Positions 8,393 through 39,869 of a stretch of DNA of 50,217 nucleotides are shown piece after piece (positions within the stretch are counted from its first letter, which is position 1; every line of letters starts with the position of its first letter). The notes under the pieces are model-generated. The model was not told where the DNA came from. It worked only from the letters and a program-made list of their open reading frames with translations, and did no database searches. The DNA is from an uncultured Ectothiorhodospiraceae bacterium (GTDB lineage Bacteria > Pseudomonadota > Gammaproteobacteria > UBA6429 > Thiohalophilaceae). Where the stretch lies: assembly GCA_947260005.1 (NCBI GenBank), contig CAMYOL010000066.1:1-50217 (forward strand), given 5' to 3'. The translations under genes and the position numbers were made by a program.

Positions 8393-8421
8393 TTGCCTGA
8401 CCTGCTTAAACTGCTTACTCT
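8393..8421 (+). promoter_or_regulatory. Possible sigma70 promoter for the Pcm-like gene
   Basis: TTGCCT, 17 bases, TACTCT, ending 40 bases before the start codon. Both hexamers are imperfect, so this is only a candidate. Confidence 0.3.
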
Positions 8422-8461
8422 AGTCATTCCTGACAATACCAATAATGATAAGGAACCCGCT

Positions 8462-9124
8462 ATGAGTAACTCCAGCATAGAAACCGCCCGACATAATATG
8501 GTCGAACAACAAATACGGCCCTGGGATGTGCTTGATGATAATGTGCTCAATTTACTCGCGGATGTGCCTCGTGAAGAATATGTCCCTGCCGGTTACCAAA
8601 ACATTGCCTTTGGCGACCTGAGCATTCCATTGGATTTTGACGAAGTTATGATGTCGCCCAAGCTGGAGGCCCGAATGCTACAGGCCTTAGCCATTCAGCC
8701 CAACGAAACGGTGCTGGAAATCGGTACCGGCAGTGGCTTTGTCACCACTCTGCTGGCTAAATCAGCTCGCCATGTTTACAGCGTAGATTTACACGACGAA
8801 TTCATCGCCCGCGTGCGCTCGAAGCTTGAAGAAGAAGGCATCATTAACGTCACCCTGGAAACGGGCGATGCCGCACAAGGCTGGCCAAAATATGGACCCT
8901 ATGACGTCATAGCAGTCACCGGATCCTTTCCGGTCCTACCGGATGCCTTGCTACAATCCCTCACCGTGGGTGGGCGCATGTTTGTCATTGTTGGTGATAG
9001 CCCGGTTATGGAAGCCGAGCTCATTACCCGGCTGAATGAATCCGAATTCCGCACTGTAAAGCTGTTTGAAACCGACTTACAACCCTTACGCAATTGCCTA
9101 CAACCTGACCGTTTCGTGCTTTAA
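8462..9124 (+). CDS. Protein-L-isoaspartate O-methyltransferase family protein
   Basis: This is 220 aa from the ATG at 8462, chosen because AAGGA sits 7 bases upstream; an upstream in-frame TTG (8393) would add a non-conserved 23-residue tail. The SAM-binding motif I is VLEIGTGSG (84-92), followed by an acidic motif (VYSVDLHDEF). The N-terminal ARHNMVEQQIRPWDVLD is typical of the Pcm-like branch found next to rhodanese and tolC in many gammaproteobacteria; family members methylate isoaspartyl residues for repair, but this branch often differs from true Pcm near the active site, so the substrate is uncertain. The same-strand rhodanese follows after 83 bases. Confidence 0.88.
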   Translation: MSNSSIETARHNMVEQQIRPWDVLDDNVLNLLADVPREEYVPAGYQNIAFGDLSIPLDFDEVMMSPKLEARMLQALAIQPNETVLEIGTGSGFVTTLLAKSARHVYSVDLHDEFIARVRSKLEEEGIINVTLETGDAAQGWPKYGPYDVIAVTGSFPVLPDALLQSLTVGGRMFVIVGDSPVMEAELITRLNESEFRTVKLFETDLQPLRNCLQPDRFVL

Positions 9125-9149
9125 TTCCCAACTTTTTGTCCTAATAGCC

Positions 9150-9178
9150 TCAATTGTTATTACAAAGGGGCGTATAAT
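9150..9178 (+). promoter_or_regulatory. Possible promoter upstream of rhodanese-tolC
   Basis: A perfect -10 TATAAT (9173-9178) lies 29 bases upstream of the rhodanese start, in an AT-rich gap. The 17-base-spaced -35 (TCAATT) is poor. Confidence 0.35.
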
Positions 9179-9207
9179 CAATTGTTTATATAGCTTCAGT
9201 AAACGGA

Positions 9208-9528
9208 ATGCGACGATTCTCAGCCAAAGATTTATCAGAACATCTACGTAGTTGTGATTCGCCGCCATTATTGTTGGATGTGCGTGAACCCTGGGAATAT
9301 GAGAAATGTCGTCTTGAGGGATCCGAACTGATACCGATGCGCCAAATCCCGATGGCGGTTGAGAAACTGGACCCGGAAAAAGAAACGGTGGTGATCTGCC
9401 ACCACGGTATTCGCAGTCGACAAGTCGGCTTTTATCTCGAACAACAAGGGTTCAAGGATGTAATCAATTTAGAAGGTGGTGTCGAGGCTTGGGCTCAGGA
9501 CGTCGACCCAGGCATGAATCAATATTAA
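9208..9528 (+). CDS. Single-domain rhodanese (sulfurtransferase)
   Basis: This is 106 aa, the size of GlpE-like single-domain rhodaneses. The active-site loop is C64-HHGIRS, matching the CxxGxR persulfide-carrying cysteine loop, with the upstream LLLDVREPWE strand and the C-terminal GGVEAWAQDVDP typical of the fold. It would move sulfane sulfur from thiosulfate or another donor to a thiol acceptor in the cytoplasm; the natural acceptor is not evident. It lies between the Pcm-like gene and tolC, 27 bases before the latter, an order seen widely in gammaproteobacteria, so cotranscription with tolC is likely. Confidence 0.93.
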   Translation: MRRFSAKDLSEHLRSCDSPPLLLDVREPWEYEKCRLEGSELIPMRQIPMAVEKLDPEKETVVICHHGIRSRQVGFYLEQQGFKDVINLEGGVEAWAQDVDPGMNQY

Positions 9529-9555
9529 ATTAGCGTAAGCAACAGGATGTTTTTT

Positions 9556-10857
9556 ATGAATAACAAAATTTTTCTTGGTTTAACTTTATTTTTTACCAGT
9601 TACAGCATACAAGCGGATGATCTTTTGCAGATCTTCGATTTATCCTTAAAAAATGACCCCACTTACGGTGCAGCAGCCGCTCAGTATCAAGCGGCTATTG
9701 AAGCTTCTCCCAAGGCCTGGGCAGGGGTTAAACCGCAGATAAACCTGTCAGGTGGACGTACCGAAGTGATCAACCCTACTCTTTTTGGAGCAGACCGACC
9801 AGATTACAAAGTCGATACTTATTCCTTAACACTAACACAAACAATTTTTAACAAAGCCCAATTTGATTCTATCGCTCAAGCCGGTGCACTGGTCGCTCAG
9901 GCTGAAGCCGTTTTTGAGAACGCACGGGATGATTTAACCTTACGTGTTTCACAGAGTTACTTTAATGTGTTGTCAGAATCGGCCAATCTTGTTTTTGCGA
10001 AGGCTGAAAAGAAAGCCATTGGCCAACAACTGGATCAGGCCAAGCAACGCTTTAAAGTGGGCTTAACTGCTATTACCGATGTCCTTGAAGCACAAGCTCG
10101 ATATGACCAGGCGGTTTCCTCTGAAATCGAAGCACAACGTTTGCTGGATCTCAGTATTGAAAGTTTACGTGAGATAATCGGCCAGGTGCCGGGTGAATTA
10201 AACAAGGTCAGGGCTGATCAAATATTAGTTTCACCTGACCCTGAAAACATCGACGAATGGGTCAAGACCGCACTCGATCGGAATCTTTTATTGCTTAGTG
10301 CCGAACAGGCGGTAAATGCTGCACGTGAAGGTAAAGATGTGGCTTATGCAGGACACTACCCAACTTTAGATTTACAAGCTGAGTATTCTGATCTTAATCG
10401 AGATGGGGGCGGATTTCCTATTGAAAGTTCGGACACTTCTGCATCGATTGTTCTAAACATCCCAATTTATTCCGGTGGTGGTACCAATGCTGCTGGTCGT
10501 GAAGCAGCCGGCTTTTATCAAGAAAGTAAGCAGCTCTACGAACAACAACGTCGTGCCACTGAACGACTCACCCGTAACAGTTACCTCACCGTACTATCGG
10601 CGATCAGCCAGGTAAAGGCATTAAAACAGGCTTTAAAATCGACCCAAACCGCATTGGAAGCCACTCAGGCTGGTTTTGAAGTCGGTACGCGTACCGCCGT
10701 TGATGTGCTGGATTCACAACGAGATATGTACCGTGCTCGTCGTGATTATGTCCGTGCCCGTCATGCTTACATCATTAATACATTACAACTTAAACAAGCC
10801 GCCGGAACCTTAACTGACGACGATATACGTTTAATCAACGCCTGGCTAGAACCATAA
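9556..10857 (+). CDS. tolC: TolC-type outer-membrane efflux channel
   Basis: This is 433 aa from the ATG at 9556, preferred over the ATG at 9547 because AGGA is then correctly placed about 8 bases upstream. A signal peptide (MNNKIFLGLTLFF...) has probable cleavage after QA at residue 19. Two OEP repeats (about 20-215 and 225-425) contain the repeated NPTYGAAAAQ-type opening and the RFKVGLTAITDVLEAQARYDQA and FEVGTRTAVDVLDSQRDMYRAR hallmarks of TolC. It forms the outer-membrane/periplasmic duct for several export systems. It lies downstream of rhodanese, and the next gene starts two bases after the tolC stop, so they form one operon. Confidence 0.93.
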   Translation: MNNKIFLGLTLFFTSYSIQADDLLQIFDLSLKNDPTYGAAAAQYQAAIEASPKAWAGVKPQINLSGGRTEVINPTLFGADRPDYKVDTYSLTLTQTIFNKAQFDSIAQAGALVAQAEAVFENARDDLTLRVSQSYFNVLSESANLVFAKAEKKAIGQQLDQAKQRFKVGLTAITDVLEAQARYDQAVSSEIEAQRLLDLSIESLREIIGQVPGELNKVRADQILVSPDPENIDEWVKTALDRNLLLLSAEQAVNAAREGKDVAYAGHYPTLDLQAEYSDLNRDGGGFPIESSDTSASIVLNIPIYSGGGTNAAGREAAGFYQESKQLYEQQRRATERLTRNSYLTVLSAISQVKALKQALKSTQTALEATQAGFEVGTRTAVDVLDSQRDMYRARRDYVRARHAYIINTLQLKQAAGTLTDDDIRLINAWLEP

Positions 10858-10859
10858 CT

Positions 10860-11417
10860 ATGAGAGCGAGTTCGCTTTGTCATGCAGATCGCAGCCAGTT
10901 ATTAATTGTCGATATTCAGGACAAGCTTGCCAATGTGATGCCAGAAAAAATTCTCGCGCAATTACTGGCTAATACAAATATTCTTTTACAGGCCGCCTCT
11001 GAGTTAACCATTCCGATTATTCATACCGAACAATACCCCCAGGGTTTAGGGATCACTCATGCAGCAATACAGGCAAACATTCCTGGTAAAGCCATTGAGA
11101 AAACCTGCTTTTCCAGTTGTGGTGCCGACGGGATGGGCGATCATATTGCTGATGAAACTCGTGACCAATGGATTATTTTGGGTATGGAAGCGCATATTTG
11201 TGTAACACAGACTTGTATGGACTTACTATCAAAAAACAAAACCGTTATTATTGTCGCTGACGGAGTATGTTCACGCACTAAAGCGAATTATAATAATGCT
11301 ATTGCGCGCATGCGTCAGGCTGGTGCCATAGTAGCCAATACTGAATCAGTTTTGTTTGAGTGGCTCGGTGATGCGACTCATAGCCAGTTTAAAACCTTAT
11401 CGAAATTAATTCGTTAA
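10860..11417 (+). CDS. Isochorismatase-family cysteine hydrolase
   Basis: This is 185 aa. The catalytic triad of the family is visible: D18 in LLIVDIQDKL, K81 in IEKTCFS, and C114 in GMEAHICVTQT (a non-proline cis-peptide loop precedes the cysteine). The closest character is the YcaC-like group of hydrolases of unknown substrate. It starts two bases after the tolC stop and so is probably translated with it. No link to siderophore biosynthesis is visible in the neighbourhood, so a true isochorismatase role is unlikely. Confidence 0.88.
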   Translation: MRASSLCHADRSQLLIVDIQDKLANVMPEKILAQLLANTNILLQAASELTIPIIHTEQYPQGLGITHAAIQANIPGKAIEKTCFSSCGADGMGDHIADETRDQWIILGMEAHICVTQTCMDLLSKNKTVIIVADGVCSRTKANYNNAIARMRQAGAIVANTESVLFEWLGDATHSQFKTLSKLIR

Positions 11418-11455
11418 ACTATAAATTACCATAACCGAATAGATTAAAGTTAAGC

Positions 11456-11461
11456 TATAAT
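11456..11461 (+). promoter_or_regulatory. -10 element just before lpxL-waaA fusion, possible leaderless start
   Basis: A perfect TATAAT ends only 9 bases before the ATG of the fusion gene and no Shine-Dalgarno sequence is present, so transcription would begin within a few bases of the start codon. There is no good -35. Confidence 0.35.
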
Positions 11462-11470
11462 TCTTTAGTC

Positions 11471-13645
11471 ATGGCGAATGCAGATAACCCATACACCGTA
11501 CGCTATATTTTAAATCCGATTTATTGGCCGATGTGGCTCGGGTTTGGTGTCGGTCGACTCTGCACATTTTTACCTTTACCGGCCATTTCTCTACTCGCAA
11601 AAATATTTAGCACAGTGGGTTTGCTCTTCATGCCAGAACGTAGGCGCATCACCCGAACCAATATACGTCTTTGTTTTCCCCATTATTCTAAAAAAGAAGT
11701 CCGTCATTTAATGCGGTTAAATTTTTATAACAGTACGATGGCCGTACTGGAAACAGCATTAAGTTGGTGGGGCTCAGATGATTTTTTTAAACAGTATTCA
11801 CATATTGAAGGCATGGAGCACATTGAAGCCGCCTTGAAAAATGGTAATGGAGCTTTAATGTTAGGCGCACATTATACCACGCTTGAGATCGGTGGCCGGA
11901 TAACCATGCAGTTTTTAAAACAGGCAACTCCAACGTATAAACCGGCCCGTAACAAACTATTTAATGCCATGATGGTAAGCTCACGTTCTCGATATCAAGG
12001 AGAACAGTTAAAAAGCAGCAATTTGCGTGAACTGCTTAAAAGATTAAAGAACAATAATGTAATATGGTATGCGCCGGATCAGGATTTTGGTCTCCATGGA
12101 ACTGTATTTGCACCGTTTATGGGGGTGCAAACAACGACTTTAACCACGACAGCACGTATTGCCAAATCATCTGGCACCACGATATTACCCTGGTATTGTG
12201 AACGATTAGCCAATAATAAAGGCTATAAGGTGATCATCGGTCCAGCATTCGAAAACTTTCCATCTGGTAATGACATTGACGATGCCACGACTATCAATAA
12301 ATCGATTGAAAAACAGGTAAAGCGCCTGCCAGAACAATATTTATGGGGACATCGTCGCTTTAAAACCCGCCCCAAAGGTATGCCGCAAGTATACCGCCTC
12401 AGACGAGATAAATTTGTTACCGCCTATACCTTTGCACATATTCTTCTTGTCTTTCCTGTTTTGGCCTACACTATATGGACTGCCCTAAAGCACAGACAAT
12501 TAGCTTATCTTAATCAACGAATTGGATTAGGTGACTATAAAAAATCTGATCTGATTATTCATGCCGCCTCAATTGGCGAAGTTAATGCAGTTAGTAACCT
12601 AATAAATTTAATTCTTGATAAAAACCCAAACATAAATATCCTGTTAAGCGTCAATACCCCTAGCGGAATGAACATTGCAAAATCCAGATTTTCTAATAAG
12701 GTCGATTACTGTTATATGCCTATCGATTGGAAATGGGCATCAAACAGATATCTGGATATGGTAAACCCCGGGTGTGTTTTAATCACTGAAACTGAAATAT
12801 GGTTAAATTTCTATGAACACTGTTATTACAAAGGGATTAAAAATATAATTATCAATGCTCGACTTTCTAAACGCAGTCTTAATACACCCTACATAGTTCG
12901 TCGCTGGCTTAGCCAGGCGCTGCAATACACCCACGCAATCCTTGCCAGGTCAGAAGAAGATGAAAATAATTATCTAAAACTTAATACTAATAAAGAAATA
13001 ATATCGACTGTGGGTAATATAAAATATGCTCTCTCACCCAAAACAAGTAGTCTACCGATAGAACTGGGATATCCTTATATACTTTTAGCTTCGACTCGAG
13101 ATGGCGAAGAGAAATTACTTTGCCAAAAATTACTTAGCTATAAGGGTCTTCCATTACTTGTGATAGTGCCAAGGCATATTACTCGGCTCCCATCAATATT
13201 GAACGACTTAACATCACTGACAAAGGATATTTCTGTCAGAAGTAGAAAAGAAGCCGTGACCAATAAAACCCAAATTTATATCGCTGATACATTTGGAGAA
13301 CTCGATCAATTTATCTCTGGCTCTAACTTTGTCATCATGGGTGGATCTTTCGAACCATTCGGTGGTCAAAATATAATTGAGGTCGCCAGTGCAGGGAAAA
13401 TGGTTATGTTTGGTCCACATATGGAGAACTTTGCCACCGAAGCAAAGCAATTTATTGAAAACAATGCGGGGATACAAGTCAATTCTTTAGAAGAACTACT
13501 GTCAGAGACAATTAATTTAATTAGCAATCCTGAAATTACCAATAGAATAGGCAAGAATGGACTTTTATTTGTTGAACAATATTCTGATATTGTTGAGAAA
13601 TACTATAATGAAATTTCTCTTTTATGTCACGAATTAAAGAACTAA
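11471..13645 (+). CDS. Fusion: LpxL-type lipid A acyltransferase + WaaA Kdo transferase
   Basis: A single 724-aa frame joins two enzymes. Residues 1-about 305 are a late lipid A acyltransferase (LpxL/HtrB type): an N-terminal hydrophobic helix, the HX4E catalytic motif H134-YTTL-E139, YAPDQDFG (200-207), and the C-terminal LWGHRRFKTRPKG (291-303). Residues about 313-724 are WaaA/KdtA (GT30): a membrane anchor (318-337), the catalytic glutamate in HAASIGE (364-370), ETEIW (440-444), INARLSKRS (461-469), VPRH (566-569) and GGSFEPFGGQN (624-634). WaaA adds Kdo from CMP-Kdo to lipid IVA; LpxL then acylates Kdo-lipid IVA. The fusion therefore links consecutive steps at the inner membrane. The linker is only about 10 residues and no frameshift is needed. 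It is convergent with the FkbM gene 16 bases on. Confidence 0.93.
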   Translation: MANADNPYTVRYILNPIYWPMWLGFGVGRLCTFLPLPAISLLAKIFSTVGLLFMPERRRITRTNIRLCFPHYSKKEVRHLMRLNFYNSTMAVLETALSWWGSDDFFKQYSHIEGMEHIEAALKNGNGALMLGAHYTTLEIGGRITMQFLKQATPTYKPARNKLFNAMMVSSRSRYQGEQLKSSNLRELLKRLKNNNVIWYAPDQDFGLHGTVFAPFMGVQTTTLTTTARIAKSSGTTILPWYCERLANNKGYKVIIGPAFENFPSGNDIDDATTINKSIEKQVKRLPEQYLWGHRRFKTRPKGMPQVYRLRRDKFVTAYTFAHILLVFPVLAYTIWTALKHRQLAYLNQRIGLGDYKKSDLIIHAASIGEVNAVSNLINLILDKNPNINILLSVNTPSGMNIAKSRFSNKVDYCYMPIDWKWASNRYLDMVNPGCVLITETEIWLNFYEHCYYKGIKNIIINARLSKRSLNTPYIVRRWLSQALQYTHAILARSEEDENNYLKLNTNKEIISTVGNIKYALSPKTSSLPIELGYPYILLASTRDGEEKLLCQKLLSYKGLPLLVIVPRHITRLPSILNDLTSLTKDISVRSRKEAVTNKTQIYIADTFGELDQFISGSNFVIMGGSFEPFGGQNIIEVASAGKMVMFGPHMENFATEAKQFIENNAGIQVNSLEELLSETINLISNPEITNRIGKNGLLFVEQYSDIVEKYYNEISLLCHELKN

Positions 13646-13661
13646 ACCTAATTCGAGTCTA

Positions 13662-14519
13662 CTACTTCACCCCACCCACTAGCTCAATATTTTTTATGAA
13701 ATCCTCTAATAAATGATTCGGGATAAACATATAATTAGGGTCATATTGTTTAAAGAAGTCATCAGGCATTCTAATAACTTTTAACTCTTGTTCACTGGTT
13801 ATAGAAAGGATCGAATAGTCGAGTTCAGTCATTAATTTATAAATTTGGGTAACTCTATCAACTTCTTGAGGATTTTTTTGACTGGCCCAGACCTCCGCGT
13901 AAAGAAAAGGTCTAAATGTTTCAATTGTATTAATCAAACCATTCAAAACAAATAACTCCGCGCCTTCAACATCTATTTTTATGACCGCTATTTCATTAAC
14001 ATCCAACATTTCTATAAAGGTATCACCTTTAACAGTCACTATATCAGACGAATGTCCAAAAGCAGCAGAATCAGTCCCTTCATTAACCAGCAGAGATGCG
14101 GTTTTATCCCCTATTTTATTAGCATAAAGTGTTCTTACGCATAATTCATTTGAAAGCGCTACCGGTAACACTCTGGCTTTTTTAAAATTATTAATACGAA
14201 TAAGCTCATTAGTATAATAATTACATACCGCATTTGGCTCAAAACCAATATATTCGATGTCATCACGAAGAACTTTAAGCTTTACGAGGTAAACTCCTAC
14301 ATTAACACCTACATCAATCACACAACCTTGCTTGGTTCTTAAGAAAGCATCAAGACACTGCCCCATCCAGAGCTCGGCCGGGATAACGTATCCACGCCCC
14401 ATGCCATATATAATTGGATAATGAAGATCTAAACCTAAATAGTCATTGCGTGCGGATTTCACGCATGTTTTAGAAAAGAACACGATTAATTCGCGTTTTA
14501 ATTTACCCAAAAAATTCAT
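13662..14519 (-). CDS. FkbM-family SAM methyltransferase
   Basis: This is 285 aa from the ATG at 14519 (GGA about 8 bases upstream); an upstream in-frame TTG is unlikely. The SAM-binding glycine loop is CVIDVGVNVG (66-75) and the FkbM hallmark IKIDVEGAE (180-188) follows; the acidic E-P of GFEPNA (92-97) would hold the ribose. FkbM proteins O-methylate sugars or polyketides. As the last gene of the kdkA-GT9-methyltransferase operon, it probably methylates a core or O-antigen sugar; this is inference from context. Confidence 0.9.
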   Translation of the reverse strand: MNFLGKLKRELIVFFSKTCVKSARNDYLGLDLHYPIIYGMGRGYVIPAELWMGQCLDAFLRTKQGCVIDVGVNVGVYLVKLKVLRDDIEYIGFEPNAVCNYYTNELIRINNFKKARVLPVALSNELCVRTLYANKIGDKTASLLVNEGTDSAAFGHSSDIVTVKGDTFIEMLDVNEIAVIKIDVEGAELFVLNGLINTIETFRPFLYAEVWASQKNPQEVDRVTQIYKLMTELDYSILSITSEQELKVIRMPDDFFKQYDPNYMFIPNHLLEDFIKNIELVGGVK

Positions 14520-14576
14520 ATTGTTTTCCAATAAATTTAGATAGTAATTGTGAGTTAAAATTTATTAGTAAATTAA

Positions 14577-15266
14577 TTATAATTTTTTAGCTACAATTTC
14601 AATTGAATACTCGCCTTCACTTGGTGTTTCATCATTTACAGAAGAATAGCCTGCATCACAGGTTTTAAAATATTCAATTCTCACGTCCGGTAACAATCTT
14701 TCTAATAATGGAACCAGTCCAATCGTATCAGGCGGATCATCTCTATCCGGGAGAAAAAAATGCTCATGATCGTGGTTGAATCGAGATGGTAGTGTTTTCT
14801 TTTTTTCATACAAATCTCTATGTGGTAAATATAAAATAAAATATCCACCCTTTTTTAATACCCGCCACCAGTTTTTAATCGACGTTTCAGTATCCGGTAA
14901 ATGCTCTAACAAATGACTTGAATAAACAAAATCAAACCGTCCATCTTCAAGCCCTCTTAATAGTTGCGCATCTCCATGCTCAAAATCCCAACCCACAACA
15001 TTGGGTGCGACAGGATCACCGCCATAGCCGATATCCAGGCCTTTACCGTTACAATATTTTTTGAAAAAATCTTCACCCACACGTCTATCATGAGCTTTAT
15101 GTGTTTCACCATAAGATGGCTTCCGACCTAAAAATGGTAGTCGACCAAACAAATTATATCGAACCTTTCTAATCCGATCTTTTATTGAATGATCGGTTTG
15201 CCGTGTAGAAGGCATTGGAGAAAACAGATTGTATTTAATCTTAGAATATACGTCTTTTAATCTCAT
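14577..15266 (-). CDS. Class I SAM-dependent methyltransferase with duplicated N-terminal motif
   Basis: This is 229 aa. It begins with GGAGAAATC before ATG and overlaps the preceding GT9 stop by four bases (ATGA). The SAM loop is GLDIGYGG (76-83), followed by FDFVYSSHLLEHLPD and WWRVLKKGGYFILYLPH, the usual post-motifs of the Methyltransf_11 group. The region between motif I and the acidic motif is short (VVGWDFEHGD). Before the catalytic domain, residues 3-19 and 28-44 are two copies of a 17-residue motif (L/I)KDxxxK(I/V)(K/R)YNLFxx(M/L)P, basic and amphipathic, perhaps a membrane or partner anchor. The likely acceptor is a surface sugar, by context. Confidence 0.85.
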   Translation of the reverse strand: MRLKDVYSKIKYNLFSPMPSTRQTDHSIKDRIRKVRYNLFGRLPFLGRKPSYGETHKAHDRRVGEDFFKKYCNGKGLDIGYGGDPVAPNVVGWDFEHGDAQLLRGLEDGRFDFVYSSHLLEHLPDTETSIKNWWRVLKKGGYFILYLPHRDLYEKKKTLPSRFNHDHEHFFLPDRDDPPDTIGLVPLLERLLPDVRIEYFKTCDAGYSSVNDETPSEGEYSIEIVAKKL

Positions 15267-16345
15267 GATTTCTCCAATACAGTAATAAGCTTTTCAAATT
15301 GAGAAAAACAATAATCAGCTGATAATTCCTGAGTACCCATCTTCTGTCCACATGAATCAAGTTCTCTTCCCTCCTTGAAACAGGCGATATGAATAGAATC
15401 TTCAGGATCAACAATTTCAGGTCGGGTTTGCGTAAATATACCTAATGTAGGACATTTTAGCCCAAATGCCATATGCATTATAGAGGTATCACCGGTAATA
15501 ATAAAATCGGATTTTTTAATTATAGCGGCAACATTACCGAAGCTAGTAATTGGTAATACAGAATACATTGTCTCATCAGCCGCTATTGATCTGAACTGTT
15601 CAACCAAATGCGTCTGTCCAGGGTTAGATAAAATAATCGGATAATAATTGTATTTTTGTTGGATCATTTCGGCGAGTGATACAAATTTATGTGTCGCCCA
15701 TATTTTACTCTCAACTCCCGCGGCTAGATTTATTACATAGTGTTTTTTAGGTATCTCAGATAACCAGTTATCCGCAAACGATAATTCTTGCTCATTGCAA
15801 TAAAAACTAGTCCCCCTTCTTACCGTGTGAATCCCTAATGGGAGTAAAACCGTTCCAATCTCTATAGTCCAATTTGTACACAAATCAGGATGATCAACCT
15901 GCCAATTATTTGACTTTCTTAATGCCTTAGTGTGATTGAATCCCAGCCTGTTTTTAGCATTTATAAGACGGATAATCCTTGGGCTAGCACCACCAGAGTA
16001 TAAATTTATACTAAGATCAAATTTCTTCCGCCGTAAATATCTAATTTTGCTAATTACAGTATAAATATACTTAAGAAATGGGCGTTTTTTTCTACTAAAT
16101 AAAACAAGCTCATCCACATCCGGGTGATTTTTTAGTGCGACCACTCCAGGAGGATCAACCACTACCGTCAGTTTTGATTCAGGAAATCGTTCTTTTAATG
16201 CCTCGAGTAATGACACCCGAATTAAGACATCTCCGATCAAGCCCCAACACAACACACATATTGTTTTTATCTGTGCTAATTCACCATTGGTTATTTTATT
16301 TGTATAACGTGCTTCTTTCTGTCTATTATTCTTGTTGAGAATCAT
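15263..16345 (-). CDS. Family 9 glycosyltransferase (heptosyltransferase-like)
   Basis: This is 360 aa with SD GGAAGG. It is a GT-B fold enzyme of the ADP-heptose:LPS heptosyltransferase family: the N-terminal IKTICVLCWGLIGDVLIRVS contains the conserved GD loop, and the C-terminal half contains INLAAGVESKIW and the sugar-nucleotide site ITGDTSIMHMAFGLKCPTLGIF. It overlaps kdkA upstream by 20 bases and the methyltransferase downstream by 4, so the three are coupled. It transfers heptose or a related sugar onto the LPS core on the cytoplasmic face; which residue cannot be told from sequence. Confidence 0.9.
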   Translation of the reverse strand: MILNKNNRQKEARYTNKITNGELAQIKTICVLCWGLIGDVLIRVSLLEALKERFPESKLTVVVDPPGVVALKNHPDVDELVLFSRKKRPFLKYIYTVISKIRYLRRKKFDLSINLYSGGASPRIIRLINAKNRLGFNHTKALRKSNNWQVDHPDLCTNWTIEIGTVLLPLGIHTVRRGTSFYCNEQELSFADNWLSEIPKKHYVINLAAGVESKIWATHKFVSLAEMIQQKYNYYPIILSNPGQTHLVEQFRSIAADETMYSVLPITSFGNVAAIIKKSDFIITGDTSIMHMAFGLKCPTLGIFTQTRPEIVDPEDSIHIACFKEGRELDSCGQKMGTQELSADYCFSQFEKLITVLEKS

Positions 16346-17042
16346 TATAACCTTCCAATAATTGTTCCCAATTATTTTCAGAAAAATTATACCCTGGAGT
16401 GTCCTTCTTAAACTTATAAAATGATCGTTTTAGACGAGCAAGCATTTTATCCATCCATGATTTCTGTTTCATTCGGAAGTAACTTTTATCAAAATCAATC
16501 AAATACAATTCCTGATGATCCGTTACCAGTATATTATTGGCGTTTAAATCCGCATGATAAACTCCATGCCGGTGAAATATTTTAATTAGTTGGCCAAGCG
16601 CGCTCCAAACTGAACTGTCGATTTTTTCTGCTTTTAACAACTCTCCCAATGCCGTGGTATTATCAATTCGTCGAGTTATTAGATCTGCATTATAATATAT
16701 AGTGTGTCGCATTATTCTCGCTGCAACTGGAGTCGGCACAGGTAGATTTAAAACATTCATCGCTTCTAGAAGTTTCCATTCTCTGAATACTCGCGTTTTA
16801 GATAAACCTATCCATAGATATTTATCTCGGCTAAGCTTTTCCATCATACCACCACGAAAATAATGTTTTAACACTAATGGTATGCCCGAATATTCGAAAT
16901 AGGTTGCCCTGCCTCGTTGAAGGTTTGTATCAGGTCTGCCAAGCAAATCCATTAATGAGAGACTAAATGCTTCAGGATTTAAAATAATTATTTTATTATA
17001 TAAAATATATTCATCTTTTGAAGGCTTATATATCGAGGTCAT
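16326..17042 (-). CDS. kdkA: 3-deoxy-D-manno-octulosonic acid (Kdo) kinase
   Basis: This is 238 aa, the usual KdkA length. The eukaryotic-like kinase core is visible: GRATYFEY near the N-lobe, a catalytic loop YHADLNANNILV (162-173; H163, D165, N170), and the metal-binding LIDFDKS (181-187). It phosphorylates Kdo of Kdo-lipid IVA at the 4-OH, as in Haemophilus and Vibrio that have a single Kdo. Its presence suggests the WaaA fusion may add only one Kdo (inference). It is first in a four-gene minus-strand operon with no strong SD. Confidence 0.9.
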   Translation of the reverse strand: MTSIYKPSKDEYILYNKIIILNPEAFSLSLMDLLGRPDTNLQRGRATYFEYSGIPLVLKHYFRGGMMEKLSRDKYLWIGLSKTRVFREWKLLEAMNVLNLPVPTPVAARIMRHTIYYNADLITRRIDNTTALGELLKAEKIDSSVWSALGQLIKIFHRHGVYHADLNANNILVTDHQELYLIDFDKSYFRMKQKSWMDKMLARLKRSFYKFKKDTPGYNFSENNWEQLLEGYNDSQQE

Positions 17043-17540: not shown

Positions 17541-19160
17541 TCAAAAGTTACTGGGAAGATCATTATTCGCTTTTGCTTGCCATAAGATGAAATGTCTATA
17601 CTCAATTACTGGTGAGTAGTTTTGATTGAATAGTTTCGGTAAATCTTTACCAAATGTCATTTGTTGAATATTATGCCAATTAGACATCGAAAAGGGTTTA
17701 CCCGGTTTCGGGATGATAACCACATCATAATACTTCTCTGTAATTCTTTTTACACTCCTCTCAGGTATCGCAATACCAAGCGCACGCCTCCCCATTAGTG
17801 CAATGGGGTCTAGACTATTGTCTTCGATGGCTGTCCATAACAGTGGCCGATAATAAGTATTTTGATAGCCTTCATTATCAGAATACCCCATCAGTGCACG
17901 CCACTTATTATCCTCAATTTCCTTTTTAATCAAGAGGACCTCCGTTTCTATCTCACTCGATGAATTGTCCTGTATGAACCAGATATATTTTTTTTGTACG
18001 CTAATGGTAAATACAAATATGGCCAGTATCCAGGCGACGATCCCGGATAAAAAAAATGTTTTATACGTAGTGCTTCTGACACTAAAGGCAAGTTGAAAAT
18101 CATCCCGACAACGAGAATAGTAAATCGTATAGAGCACGGCAGCGACAGGTGCAAAATGGGCTATATGATAACTGCCCGCGCCATCAATTCCTGCGGTCAG
18201 GCACACCATGATCAGCATCGCGTTTGTAAATAGAAAAGTCCAAAATGTTTCATTCGATAAAATAGGTTTAATGGCCCCTCTCTTAAAATCAAAATACATA
18301 AGCAATAGTAATGGTAGGAAAATCACATAAGCCATGCTTAGATTATGCATAAATAGCCAATAATGAAGTTCAAGTTTCGAATAAGCCTTCATAATAACAA
18401 TAAAGTTTGTCAGACTATATGCTTCAAGTAAGAATGGGCTGAAAGCTAAAGCGATACTCACAATGCCAGTATATAAAAGTTTTTGTACCCCATGTTGTCG
18501 ATAAAATAGAAATAGTAGCGGCAAAACATAACCAATCGCATGAAACTTGGCACTGACTGACAAGGCAACTCCAAGAGCCAGCAACAGCCGGCTCGTCCAC
18601 TTTGACGGCAACAACACTGATGCGACCGCTAGTGAATTACCTAGAAAAATAATGCTGTCGGACTGATTCCTGAAGGCTATCTGGGCAAATAGGAGCACAA
18701 TAACAGAATAGTAAAAAGTACCTTGAAGTGCATTACTAAAGCCATATTTTCTGATTAGAAAAAAGGACAGTACAACAAAACCAGCGGAGAAACATAAGGC
18801 TCCATATAATTTTGAACCCAATATAGGATTTGAAAACAACTTCAGGAACTCTGTTTGAAACAGGTATGTTGAAGGGCCATACAATATACTATATACATTA
18901 GGATCGTCGAACGTTGTATAGGCCGGATACCCCTCTGCAATCATTAATGAAATTGTTGTTATCGACGGTTCGATATGCTCACGATAAGTGGGTACCCATA
19001 TGTATAATGCTACTGCGCTAAACATATACCCAAGAGATACAAATGAAATCAAGCGTGGGGCAGTAAAGAGATCCGTAAACCTCCCATTTTTTTTGATATA
19101 CCAATATACAAAAGGTAGGGAAAAAATAAAAAAAAGAAGGTATGAATGGAATAATCGCAT
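17541..19160 (-). CDS. Polytopic GT-C-like membrane glycosyltransferase
   Basis: This is 539 aa with about ten or more hydrophobic helices. The first periplasmic loop carries acidic residues in YREHIEPSI (59-67) and then GYPAYTTFDDPNVYSILYGP (77-96), a layout of lipid-linked-sugar glycosyltransferases of the GT-C fold (GT39/GT87-like). It would move a sugar from polyprenyl phosphate to an acceptor in the periplasm. It is the last gene of the operon that begins with a polyprenyl-phosphate glycosyltransferase and a flippase, which supports this role. Exact family and sugar are unknown. There is a soluble C-terminal region from about 400. Confidence 0.7.
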   Translation of the reverse strand: MRLFHSYLLFFIFSLPFVYWYIKKNGRFTDLFTAPRLISFVSLGYMFSAVALYIWVPTYREHIEPSITTISLMIAEGYPAYTTFDDPNVYSILYGPSTYLFQTEFLKLFSNPILGSKLYGALCFSAGFVVLSFFLIRKYGFSNALQGTFYYSVIVLLFAQIAFRNQSDSIIFLGNSLAVASVLLPSKWTSRLLLALGVALSVSAKFHAIGYVLPLLFLFYRQHGVQKLLYTGIVSIALAFSPFLLEAYSLTNFIVIMKAYSKLELHYWLFMHNLSMAYVIFLPLLLLMYFDFKRGAIKPILSNETFWTFLFTNAMLIMVCLTAGIDGAGSYHIAHFAPVAAVLYTIYYSRCRDDFQLAFSVRSTTYKTFFLSGIVAWILAIFVFTISVQKKYIWFIQDNSSSEIETEVLLIKKEIEDNKWRALMGYSDNEGYQNTYYRPLLWTAIEDNSLDPIALMGRRALGIAIPERSVKRITEKYYDVVIIPKPGKPFSMSNWHNIQQMTFGKDLPKLFNQNYSPVIEYRHFILWQAKANNDLPSNF

Positions 19161-19184
19161 CAGATCACTGATTAGCCGATTTGA

Positions 19185-20375
19185 CTACTGTCTAACAATT
19201 CTTTTATTTCTAAAAAATAAGCCGCCAAATACTCTGTATGCCAGAAAACTTATAAAGCCAGTAAATACACCTAGCATGAACAACTCATAGTCATCACCTG
19301 TGTATAACGTATATGCTGTTGCAAGTGACAAAGACAATAGGGATAACCATGGAAGTAAATAATACTGTACTCCTGTTATCCACCACAACGAAAAGCAGGC
19401 TGCCAATACGAATAAGAATATACTACTAATCATAAATATGCTATTGGAGCCATACTCAACAATATTTGCAGAATATTCCGGAAAATAACCATAACTGATT
19501 ACTAGATTTTGAAGCGATATAGATACAACGGCACATATAATAAACAACAGTGCTTCAGACTTTTTAACCCTCATGCAATCTACCAAACTAACGGTTATTA
19601 ACAATATCGACAATGCAATCACAATAGCCATAGTAAACACAGTTGCTATATATGCAGCAACGCCAAAACACATTCCAGAAAGGGCATACAATAACAATTT
19701 GATTGTTGCATTTTTTTCGGCCTTGGTCAGTAAATATAAAGCAGCCAAACTAAACAACATCCCAGTCGGATCTACACCAAAATACAAAGGAAGCAAACTT
19801 CCCGATGCAACAAGTATTTTTTCAAAAATACGCATTGGTTTGCGTAAATGGACAGATGAAAAACTGTCCGCATACAGAAGTAAAACGACTACAACAAAAA
19901 ATACTTGAAGAGAATTAATTAATGGATACTTAATGAGGCTGATTAGAAAAAATATAAGTGCAATGATAATATTATCAACGCTATAATTCCTATCATCTTT
20001 TTTTAGGAAATTACCGAAGGCCAGCTTGCCGTCATCACAAATTAACTCTGAATCAAGGTTGCTGGTCTTAAAAATATCTTTCCATAGTTCTAACGAAGCA
20101 TTCCAATTAAGAGTGCGGTAATTTAAATTCTCACCACGTTTTGCATTATGCCTGGCATTATCCCCCTTTTCATAAAACTTGAAAGGATCCGAAACCATGG
20201 TGAAACTATAATCTGTTTGGTTAATCCTCCAGTCTAGCTTATACGTTCCTGTCTCCCTTTTAATCTTAATTGAGGATTGAATTTCTTTTAATTTTGTTAT
20301 CGAATCTTCAGGCAAATGCTCGCTCAGTTTTCGCGCACGTAATTGCATAAGGTGGTATAGGGTGTTTGCCTTCAT
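19185..20375 (-). CDS. Unknown membrane protein with N-terminal soluble domain
   Basis: This is 396 aa and I do not recognise the family. Residues 1-about 130 are hydrophilic and start with a basic helical stretch (MKANTLYHLMQLRARKLSE); from about 133 on there are roughly eight or nine hydrophobic helices and a basic end (FFRNKRIVRQ). The soluble part has aromatic-rich YKLDWRINQTDYSFTM and LNYRTLNWNASLELWKDIF. It starts six bases after the radical SAM stop and precedes the GT-C gene by 24 bases, so it belongs to the same operon. A role with the GT-C protein, as partner or a second divergent GT-C, is speculation. Confidence 0.75.
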   Translation of the reverse strand: MKANTLYHLMQLRARKLSEHLPEDSITKLKEIQSSIKIKRETGTYKLDWRINQTDYSFTMVSDPFKFYEKGDNARHNAKRGENLNYRTLNWNASLELWKDIFKTSNLDSELICDDGKLAFGNFLKKDDRNYSVDNIIIALIFFLISLIKYPLINSLQVFFVVVVLLLYADSFSSVHLRKPMRIFEKILVASGSLLPLYFGVDPTGMLFSLAALYLLTKAEKNATIKLLLYALSGMCFGVAAYIATVFTMAIVIALSILLITVSLVDCMRVKKSEALLFIICAVVSISLQNLVISYGYFPEYSANIVEYGSNSIFMISSIFLFVLAACFSLWWITGVQYYLLPWLSLLSLSLATAYTLYTGDDYELFMLGVFTGFISFLAYRVFGGLFFRNKRIVRQ

Positions 20376-38441: not shown

Positions 38442-39869
38442 TTATTTTCCACCTAAAATATTTTTAATGATGTCAGTCGTAGAATGACCTTCAATAAATT
38501 CAATAATATTGACTTCGCCACCCTGCTTAATGACACACTCGCCACCCGCAATCTGCTCAGGTTTATAATCACCACCCTTCACAAGCGCATCCGGTAACAT
38601 TTTACAGATTATCCGTTCGGGCGTGTCTTCACTAAAGGGTACTACCCAATCAACACATTCCAGAGCGGACAATAACGCCATACGTCGATCTAAAGTATTA
38701 ATGGGACGTTCCGAACCCTTAAGTCGTTTAACCGATTCATCATCATTGACGGCAATGATCAAACGATCACCCATTGCACGGGCTTTCTGTAAATAAGATA
38801 CATGCCCGGGGTGTAAAATATCAAAACAGCCATTGGTCATAACAATACGTTCGCCATGTTGTTTGGCCTGATTAACAACATCAAGCAAAGCATCTTCGTC
38901 ATAGACACCACGCGTTAATGACGCTTCACCGCGCATGGCTTGTTGTAATTCTGCTGGTGATACCGTCGCTGTACCGAGTTTTCCAACAACCACGCCTGCC
39001 GCTAAATTTGCCAGGGCCATCGCATTATTCAAACCTTCACCCGCGGCAATCGCCGTTGCTAACATCGCAATCACCGTGTCACCGGCACCCGTTACATCAA
39101 ACACTTCCTGAGCCTTGGTGGGTAAATGAATGGGGGCATGAGATTTTTGTAACAGGGTCATACCACGCTCGCTACGCGTGACCAGCAGAGCATCCAGTTC
39201 AATATCTTTAATCAGTTGCATGCCGCGATTTTCGATTTCGCTATCGGAGATACAAGTACCCACGACGGCTTCAAATTCAGATAAATTCGGTGTGATGAGT
39301 GTCGCACCTTTATAACGACTAAAGTCTGTTCCCTTCGGATCAATCAATACCGGCGTATTCGCATCACGTGCGGCACGAATTAATGATGGAAAATCCCGTA
39401 AAGTACCTTTGCCATAATCAGACAACACCACGGCACCGGCATTCGCCATCAACTTATTGGCACGTGCAACCAAGACGTCGGTACGCTGTTCGTTGAAACC
39501 ATCTTCAAAATCCAGGCGTATAAGTTGTTGGTGACGGCTAATAACCCGCAGTTTCGTGACCGTACGACTACCTGGAATTCGTTCGAAGGCACAAGTGACA
39601 CCCGATGTGCTCAATATGTCCTGAAGTGCATCGGCTGCCTCATCGTCACCGGTGTAACCAATAACATCAATGTTTGCCCCTAGTGCAGAGATATTAAGCG
39701 CGACATTACCAGACCCACCGGCACGTTCTTCAGCATCCCCCACCAACACCACCGGTACCGGTGCTTCTGGAGAAATGCGAGAGGTATCACCATGCCAGTA
39801 ACGATCCAGCATTAAGTCACCAATCACTAGTACCTGGGCATTTTCGAAATTAGGTAGATTCAGTTGCAT
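38442..39869 (-). CDS. hldE: Bifunctional heptose-7-phosphate kinase / heptose-1-phosphate adenylyltransferase
   Basis: This is 475 aa, the normal length of the fused enzyme. The N-terminal PfkB kinase domain (about 1-315) has [20 protein letters not shown] and the anion-hole motif VTGAGDTV (about 260-267). The C-terminal nucleotidyltransferase (about 340-475) has [16 protein letters not shown] with the HxGH motif. It makes D-glycero-beta-D-manno-heptose 1,7-bisphosphate and, after GmhB, ADP-heptose. It heads the hldE-hldD-GT9-waaF-waaL-waaE operon. Confidence 0.97.

Follow-up and report, generated by a model that had tools for sequence, protein, structure and literature searches.

Why does a single bacterial gene encode two enzymes of endotoxin synthesis? 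WaaA and LpxL, which complete the lipid anchor of the outer membrane and are usually encoded by two adjacent genes, carry out late steps of that pathway, and the reviews available to us in part treat them as separate enzymes. In the window (the whole analysed stretch of DNA, 50,217 nucleotides) both are encoded in one reading frame, which raises the questions of whether the fusion is real, how it arose and what joining the two halves would achieve. A preliminary description of this DNA interpreted the fusion as a means of passing the product from one domain to the other. The PMC articles cited below were available in part, and our statements about them refer to those parts.

The fused gene and its domains

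Profile matches and structure alignments agree with the preliminary description that one 724-residue frame holds a complete late acyltransferase and a complete Kdo transferase (Table 1). PF03279 (Lip_A_acyltrans) matches residues 14-299 (E 4.1e-64; 217.1 bits against a gathering score of 22.3), and profile positions 9-295 of 295 are covered, so that the full domain is present. Aligned to LpxM (5kn7), H134 and E139 fall on its H...E and form the HX4(D/E) catalytic dyad of the late acyltransferases (PMC3087551). PF04413 (Glycos_transf_N) matches residues 347-520 (E 6.9e-46; 156.5 bits against a gathering score of 23.9), and the WaaA half beyond this match aligns with the solved WaaA structures 2xci and 4bfc. 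In the alignment E370 is the Glu of HTASIGE in 2xci and R568 the Arg of VPRH. Together with N634 and E637 they supply the catalytic Glu and the CMP-binding Arg, Asn and Glu whose roles are described for the A. aeolicus enzyme (PMC6286764); judging from the chain offset, E370 and R568 would be E31 and R212 in A. aeolicus numbering. The protein falls short of the curated NCBIfam cut-offs for TIGR02207 (LpxL/LpxP; 287.4 against 297.8 bits) and for the WaaA equivalog (best model NF004388; 256.9 against 438 bits). Given the strong Pfam matches and the missed NCBIfam cut-offs, the two domains read as clear but divergent members of their families. Structure prediction from three input sequences gave a mean pLDDT of 46.9 and a pTM of 0.32, too poor for domain placement.

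Table 1. Features of the fused gene and its surroundings (positions in the window).
Feature	Position	Strand	Basis and remarks
Conserved upstream genes: protein isoaspartate methyltransferase-like, rhodanese-like, TolC-family, cysteine hydrolase-like (weak)	8393..11417	+	
Fused lpxL-waaA gene	11471..13645	+	724 aa, ATG to TAA, no internal stops
LpxL-type late acyltransferase half, residues 1-309	11471..12397	+	PF03279; 5kn7 alignment; dyad H134/E139
Basic linker joining the halves, residues 310-318	12398..12424	+	Joint alignment, breakpoint analysis
Retained WaaA N-terminal hydrophobic segment, residues 319-341, with P329; predicted re-entrant	12425..12493	+	Hydropathy, charge
WaaA (GT30-type) Kdo transferase half	12425..13642	+	PF04413; 2xci and 4bfc alignment; E370, R568, GGQNIIE 631-637
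FkbM-family methyltransferase, weakly matched methyltransferase-like and GT9 heptosyltransferase-like genes	13662..16345	-	Profile matches
kdkA (Kdo kinase gene), convergent with the fused gene across three others	16326..17042	-	PRK01723, PF06293

The source genome (G000; 99.47% complete, 81 contigs) has its only full-length LpxL and its only WaaA in the fused gene. A profile search of the contigs found PF04413 in the fused gene alone, and the second match to PF03279 is partial and weak (profile positions 100-291 of 295; 30.7 bits). This partial match lies outside the window in a 566-aa ORF (G000:C29:161576-163276; L003 1444-3144, minus strand), which we take to have a glycosyltransferase-like N-terminus and an LpxL-like C-terminal part, possibly of the aryl-polyene type. 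It is possibly another acyltransferase fusion in this genome.

Spread of the fusion among relatives

The joint was read from the DNA in 40 genomes of the window's order, which comprise one family: 24 are fused, 11 have separate genes and five are undecided (G002, G023, G032, G033 and G036, because of contig ends or because a near relative was not found). The fused genomes span 16 of the 18 genera of the order; those with separate genes belong to genus g13 (G015, G034, G058, G059, G060, G026 and G030) and genus g14 (G027, G016, G035 and G031). Outside the order, the fusion was identified in three of six genomes of family f36 and in one of three of family f155 (G398). The preliminary description had allowed for a frameshift or stop at the joint, or for an assembly join, and the open frame in 24 of the 40 genomes of the order removes that concern. 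Nothing beyond the window itself would favor an assembly or sequencing error that joined two genes; relatives refute it, as 28 genomes have a frame that is open across the joint, among them G021 (contig of 0.52 Mb), G019 (1.21 Mb) and, from another order, G322 (2.55 Mb), and we give such an artefact practically no credence.

In a survey of 369 genomes of the class, with matches listed down to about 222 bits and at most three candidates scored per genome, the listed matches include six genomes with the two domains in a single open frame, four of them from the window's family. A survey of 398 genomes of the phylum at an E value threshold of 1e-60 recovered both domains in one frame for the window's own gene only. 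More distant fusions may have escaped both surveys. Full-length matches in G015, G110, G420, G125 and G287 were considered as additional fusions and rejected, as the DNA has a stop at each joint. We found no description of an LpxL-WaaA fusion in the open-licence PMC literature, as far as its text was available; subscription papers and protein-architecture databases lie outside this scope. The available text of a paper on the evolution of the pathway (PMC3087551) contains the word "fusion" 0 times and "fused" once.

The residues expected to be catalytic are conserved. H364, S367, E370, R568 and N634 of the WaaA half are kept in all 28 fused sequences, the LpxL His in the 26 of 26 that cover the column, and its acidic partner in 26 of 27 (24 E, 2 D). 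The fused protein of G006 (L027, G006:C63:7418-9559) has L at the acidic position of HX4(D/E) and intact WaaA residues, and may be inactive in its acyltransferase half.

The fused gene would be expected to yield one product. Sixteen of the 28 fused sequences have no in-frame ATG, GTG or TTG between 20 codons ahead of the joint and 2 codons past it; in the remaining 12, a 4-base Shine-Dalgarno core precedes one start only (G028). With single copies of both halves in the genome and internal starts scarce near the joint, the fixed 1:1 ratio proposed in the preliminary description holds. The scarcity of starts also counts against a fusion that is cleaved after translation, or re-initiated internally, to give two ordinary enzymes. 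The short basic linker could be a protease site, and E. coli WaaA is a substrate of FtsH (PMC6286764, PMC12444477), but we consider such processing very unlikely. A promoter-terminator scan of positions 10700-14200 returned 17 promoter-like sites, compared with 12.3 (sd 3.3) in shuffles.

Probable origin from adjacent genes

The separate but adjacent lpxL/htrB and waaA/kdtA genes of many Gammaproteobacteria have the same two domains, order and strand as the fusion, which differs in being one chain with a joint of ~10 residues, including extra basic residues, in place of the stop and start. In 30 of 41 separate-gene genomes (44 loci read), which were chosen by similarity and hence are not a random sample, waaA immediately follows lpxL in the same orientation. 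Four of them (G015, G110, G420 and G125) have lpxL, a stop, one codon and the waaA ATG, all in frame, and in G287 waaA is in frame with lpxL across an 18-base gap. Thus, since the alternative in relatives is a pair of adjacent genes, the fusion amounts to the loss of a stop codon. At loci L026, L037, L038 and L054, where a stop, a single codon and an ATG stand in frame, readthrough of the stop would yield some fused protein.

Such a fusion probably arose at least twice. In family f155, G398 is fused via a different, longer linker, and its sisters G193 and G303 have separate genes that overlap at ATGA in a different frame. Trees were built for each half (66 LpxL and 67 WaaA sequences; G407 was left out of the LpxL tree as too short), and the G398 WaaA half groups with its two f155 sisters with support of 100/100. 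One origin for all 28 fusions was considered and rejected, as a single clade is rejected on WaaA (p 0.0003), although it is not rejected on LpxL (27 rows, p 0.25), where the G398 branch is long. One origin of the fusions other than G398 is not rejected on either half (WaaA, 27 rows, p 0.43; LpxL, 26 rows, p 0.47). Against such a shared origin, in the best trees the G006 LpxL half falls with separate genes (support 87/90), and fused WaaA halves interleave with separate ones, with five label changes on mostly weak branches. The placement of G398, the rejected WaaA clade and the interleaving thus point to probably two or more fusions, of which that in G398 is probably independent.

Apparent exchange of halves near the joint

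Comparison of the window with G003, of the same genus, reveals a sharp change within the fused gene. The LpxL halves are 73% identical and the WaaA halves 39-40%; identity is 75-82% in the four genes just before the fused gene and 42% in kdkA. The best two-rate breakpoint falls at residue 309 (299-315 within 2 lnL). With column conservation counted, the shift between the two genomes is placed at residue 280. In the LpxL tree the source genome pairs with G003 (support 100/100), and in the WaaA tree it pairs with G001 (100/97) and G003 with G322 (100/92). In AU tests of pairs picked after the trees were seen, the pairing with G003 was rejected on WaaA (p 0.00018) and that with G001 on LpxL (p 0.0006). 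G001, also of the same genus, is 64-75% identical to the window in the upstream genes, 49% in the LpxL half, 55% in the WaaA half and, on the far side of the LPS island, 85-87% in hldE and hldD; thus, LpxL is not in every comparison the more stable half. The first 285 LpxL residues of G002 are 77-79% identical to those of the source genome and G003, and its WaaA fragment shares 50% with the window and 46-50% with the eight fused relatives that score best against it. This mosaic signal is only suggestive, the WaaA fragment being on a different contig from the LpxL fragment.

The pattern extends beyond these genomes. When WaaA identity was regressed on LpxL identity over 351 pairs, the source genome and G003 fell 3.3 sd low and G029 and G013 5.7 sd high. 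Among 325 pairs (not independent of one another, and leaving out the partial sequences G005 and G407), with column conservation counted, 14 exceed a mean shift of 4.5, the largest value in 60 shuffles being 4.0, and eight of these 14 break within residues 280-319. Uneven rates between the halves could mimic part of this signal. The gene itself drops from 42.5% G+C in the LpxL half to 35.8% in the WaaA half, and window G+C is 0.44-0.48 at 2-12 kb, 0.32-0.41 over the LPS island (12001-38000) and 0.42-0.47 beyond 38 kb. The most direct reading of these patterns is that halves have been exchanged at the conserved LpxL end or close to it, presumably by homologous recombination, with the gene lying at the edge of a variable LPS island.

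The fusion may also be neutral, a stop lost between co-translated genes whose product worked and stayed, so that fusing brought no gain. The four genomes noted above stand one in-frame stop away from fusion, fusion probably arose twice, and exchange of halves is tolerated; these points speak for it. Two findings weigh against it: the fusion occurs, with 41-54% identity to the window protein, in 24 of the 35 genomes of the order whose state could be decided, and the frame has been kept across apparent exchanges that could easily break it. We regard neutrality as unlikely.

The Kdo kinase and the surrounding locus

The genome encodes a Kdo kinase, as KdkA scores 241.5 bits against PRK01723 (cut-off 142). 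The kinase gene lies convergently downstream in all 26 testable fused loci (25 within the fetched flank, plus the window); G022 and G012 were left out of this count because their contigs end 1-2 bases past waaA. Among the 41 separate-gene genomes, 20 likewise carry the kinase gene close to waaA, and several end too early to tell. Thus, kdkA is a feature of this type of locus and gives no explanation for the fusion.

In V. cholerae, KdkA acts after a mono-functional WaaA, and the single Kdo is phosphorylated before LpxL acts (PMC3178793, PMC10743493), a modification that is essential for LpxL (PMC3178793). LpxL function also requires phosphorylated Kdo in H. influenzae and B. pertussis (PMC3178793), and kdtA and kdkA of the latter appeared essential (PMC10743493). 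The fused loci resemble this mono-Kdo pathway in having kdkA near waaA; KdtA and LpxL of V. cholerae are, however, described as separate enzymes, and transfer of one Kdo by the fusion is putative. By analogy, KdkA probably acts between the two fused reactions, a reading that carries the need of LpxL for phosphorylated Kdo over from the three other bacteria.

These results bear on the channelling proposed in the preliminary description, in which Kdo-lipid IVA would pass from the WaaA site to the LpxL site in consecutive steps. The preliminary description is upheld on the fusion, the completeness of the halves and their ratio, and not on channelling. Two enzymes of the same short pathway do share a chain in 16 of the 18 genera, and the activity of E. 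coli LpxL on lipid IVA is about 6000-fold lower when Kdo is missing (PMC6286764), as channelling would lead one to expect. But the locus encodes a kinase whose product LpxL requires in three kinase-bearing bacteria, both enzymes are in any case associated with the membrane and have a membrane lipid as substrate (PMC6286764), and LpxL halves that are 73% identical are joined to WaaA halves that are 40% identical, which speaks against a matched tunnel between the domains. We consider channelling improbable, and the KdkA step together with the apparent exchange of WaaA halves argues for tethering instead.

The window also encodes HldE (38442-39869), a kinase/adenylyltransferase of LPS heptose synthesis that likewise combines two pathway activities in one chain, although its reactions and domains differ from those of the LpxL-WaaA fusion. 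Two ORFs of the LPS island, of 539 and 396 aa (17541-20375, minus strand), have no Pfam matches at E 1e-3. Neither tRNAs nor Rfam families at the gathering score were identified in the window.

Membrane topology

Both halves contain a hydrophobic segment near the N-terminus. The hydropathy profile places that of LpxL at about residues 21-56, where P35 and P37 interrupt it. The WaaA segment occurs in each of the 28 fused sequences, with a mean best 19-residue hydropathy of 1.58, compared with 1.44 in 39 separate WaaA proteins, in four of which the extracted sequence began past the segment. All 28 fused sequences have a proline within the best 19-residue window and net positive charge on both sides.

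Cysteine labelling placed both the N-terminus and the globular domain of LpxM in the cytoplasm, and the same was proposed for LpxL (PMC6133551). Re-entrant helices of this family were recognized by basic residues before the segment, a helix breaker inside it and covariance of the segment with the globular domain (PMC6133551). The LpxL half is a member of this family, and its segment is re-entrant by analogy. The WaaA segment has the corresponding sequence traits, with basic residues before it, a helix breaker inside and a role that fits a one-sided topology; the main text of PMC6133551, as available, does not mention WaaA, KdtA or Kdo transferase.

The order of the chain adds a constraint. With the LpxL globular domain in the cytoplasm, the WaaA segment of the fusion starts from the cytoplasm, and since CMP-Kdo is cytoplasmic, the WaaA catalytic half must end there as well. 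Thus, we predict that the WaaA anchor, residues 319-341, is re-entrant and one-sided, not membrane-spanning.

A model for the fused enzyme

Taken as a whole, the evidence is probably best explained by a membrane-tethered pair of active sites with KdkA acting in between, re-entrant anchors and exchange at the linker. Neighbouring lpxL and waaA genes would have fused by loss of the lpxL stop codon, giving a single inner-membrane enzyme with a putative LpxL site in the N-terminal half and a putative WaaA site in the C-terminal half. Most likely, the WaaA half would add one Kdo to lipid IVA, a separate KdkA would then phosphorylate that Kdo, and the LpxL half would next add the secondary acyl chain. 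The fusion would hold two members of a three-enzyme station on the cytoplasmic face of the membrane, without a product tunnel. As both catalytic halves need cytoplasmic donors, both segments (LpxL about 21-56 and WaaA 319-341) would be re-entrant, with both ends of each on the cytoplasmic side. The fused gene would mark the border of the variable LPS island, and the linker region would be a preferred exchange point at which the frame stays open.

We advance more tentatively a reading centered on the linker itself, which may serve as a recombination joint that plugs different Kdo transferases, and the LPS island with them, onto the acyltransferase while one chain is kept, chain order then making the WaaA segment re-entrant.

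For annotation, the fusion is a warning that a genome in which separate lpxL and waaA genes are not identified may still have both steps. It offers a simple test of the topology of WaaA and, as a natural fusion across many genera, a ready construct for studying how enzymes are organized at the membrane surface. It suggests that LpxL and WaaA can be yoked together without a matched interface.
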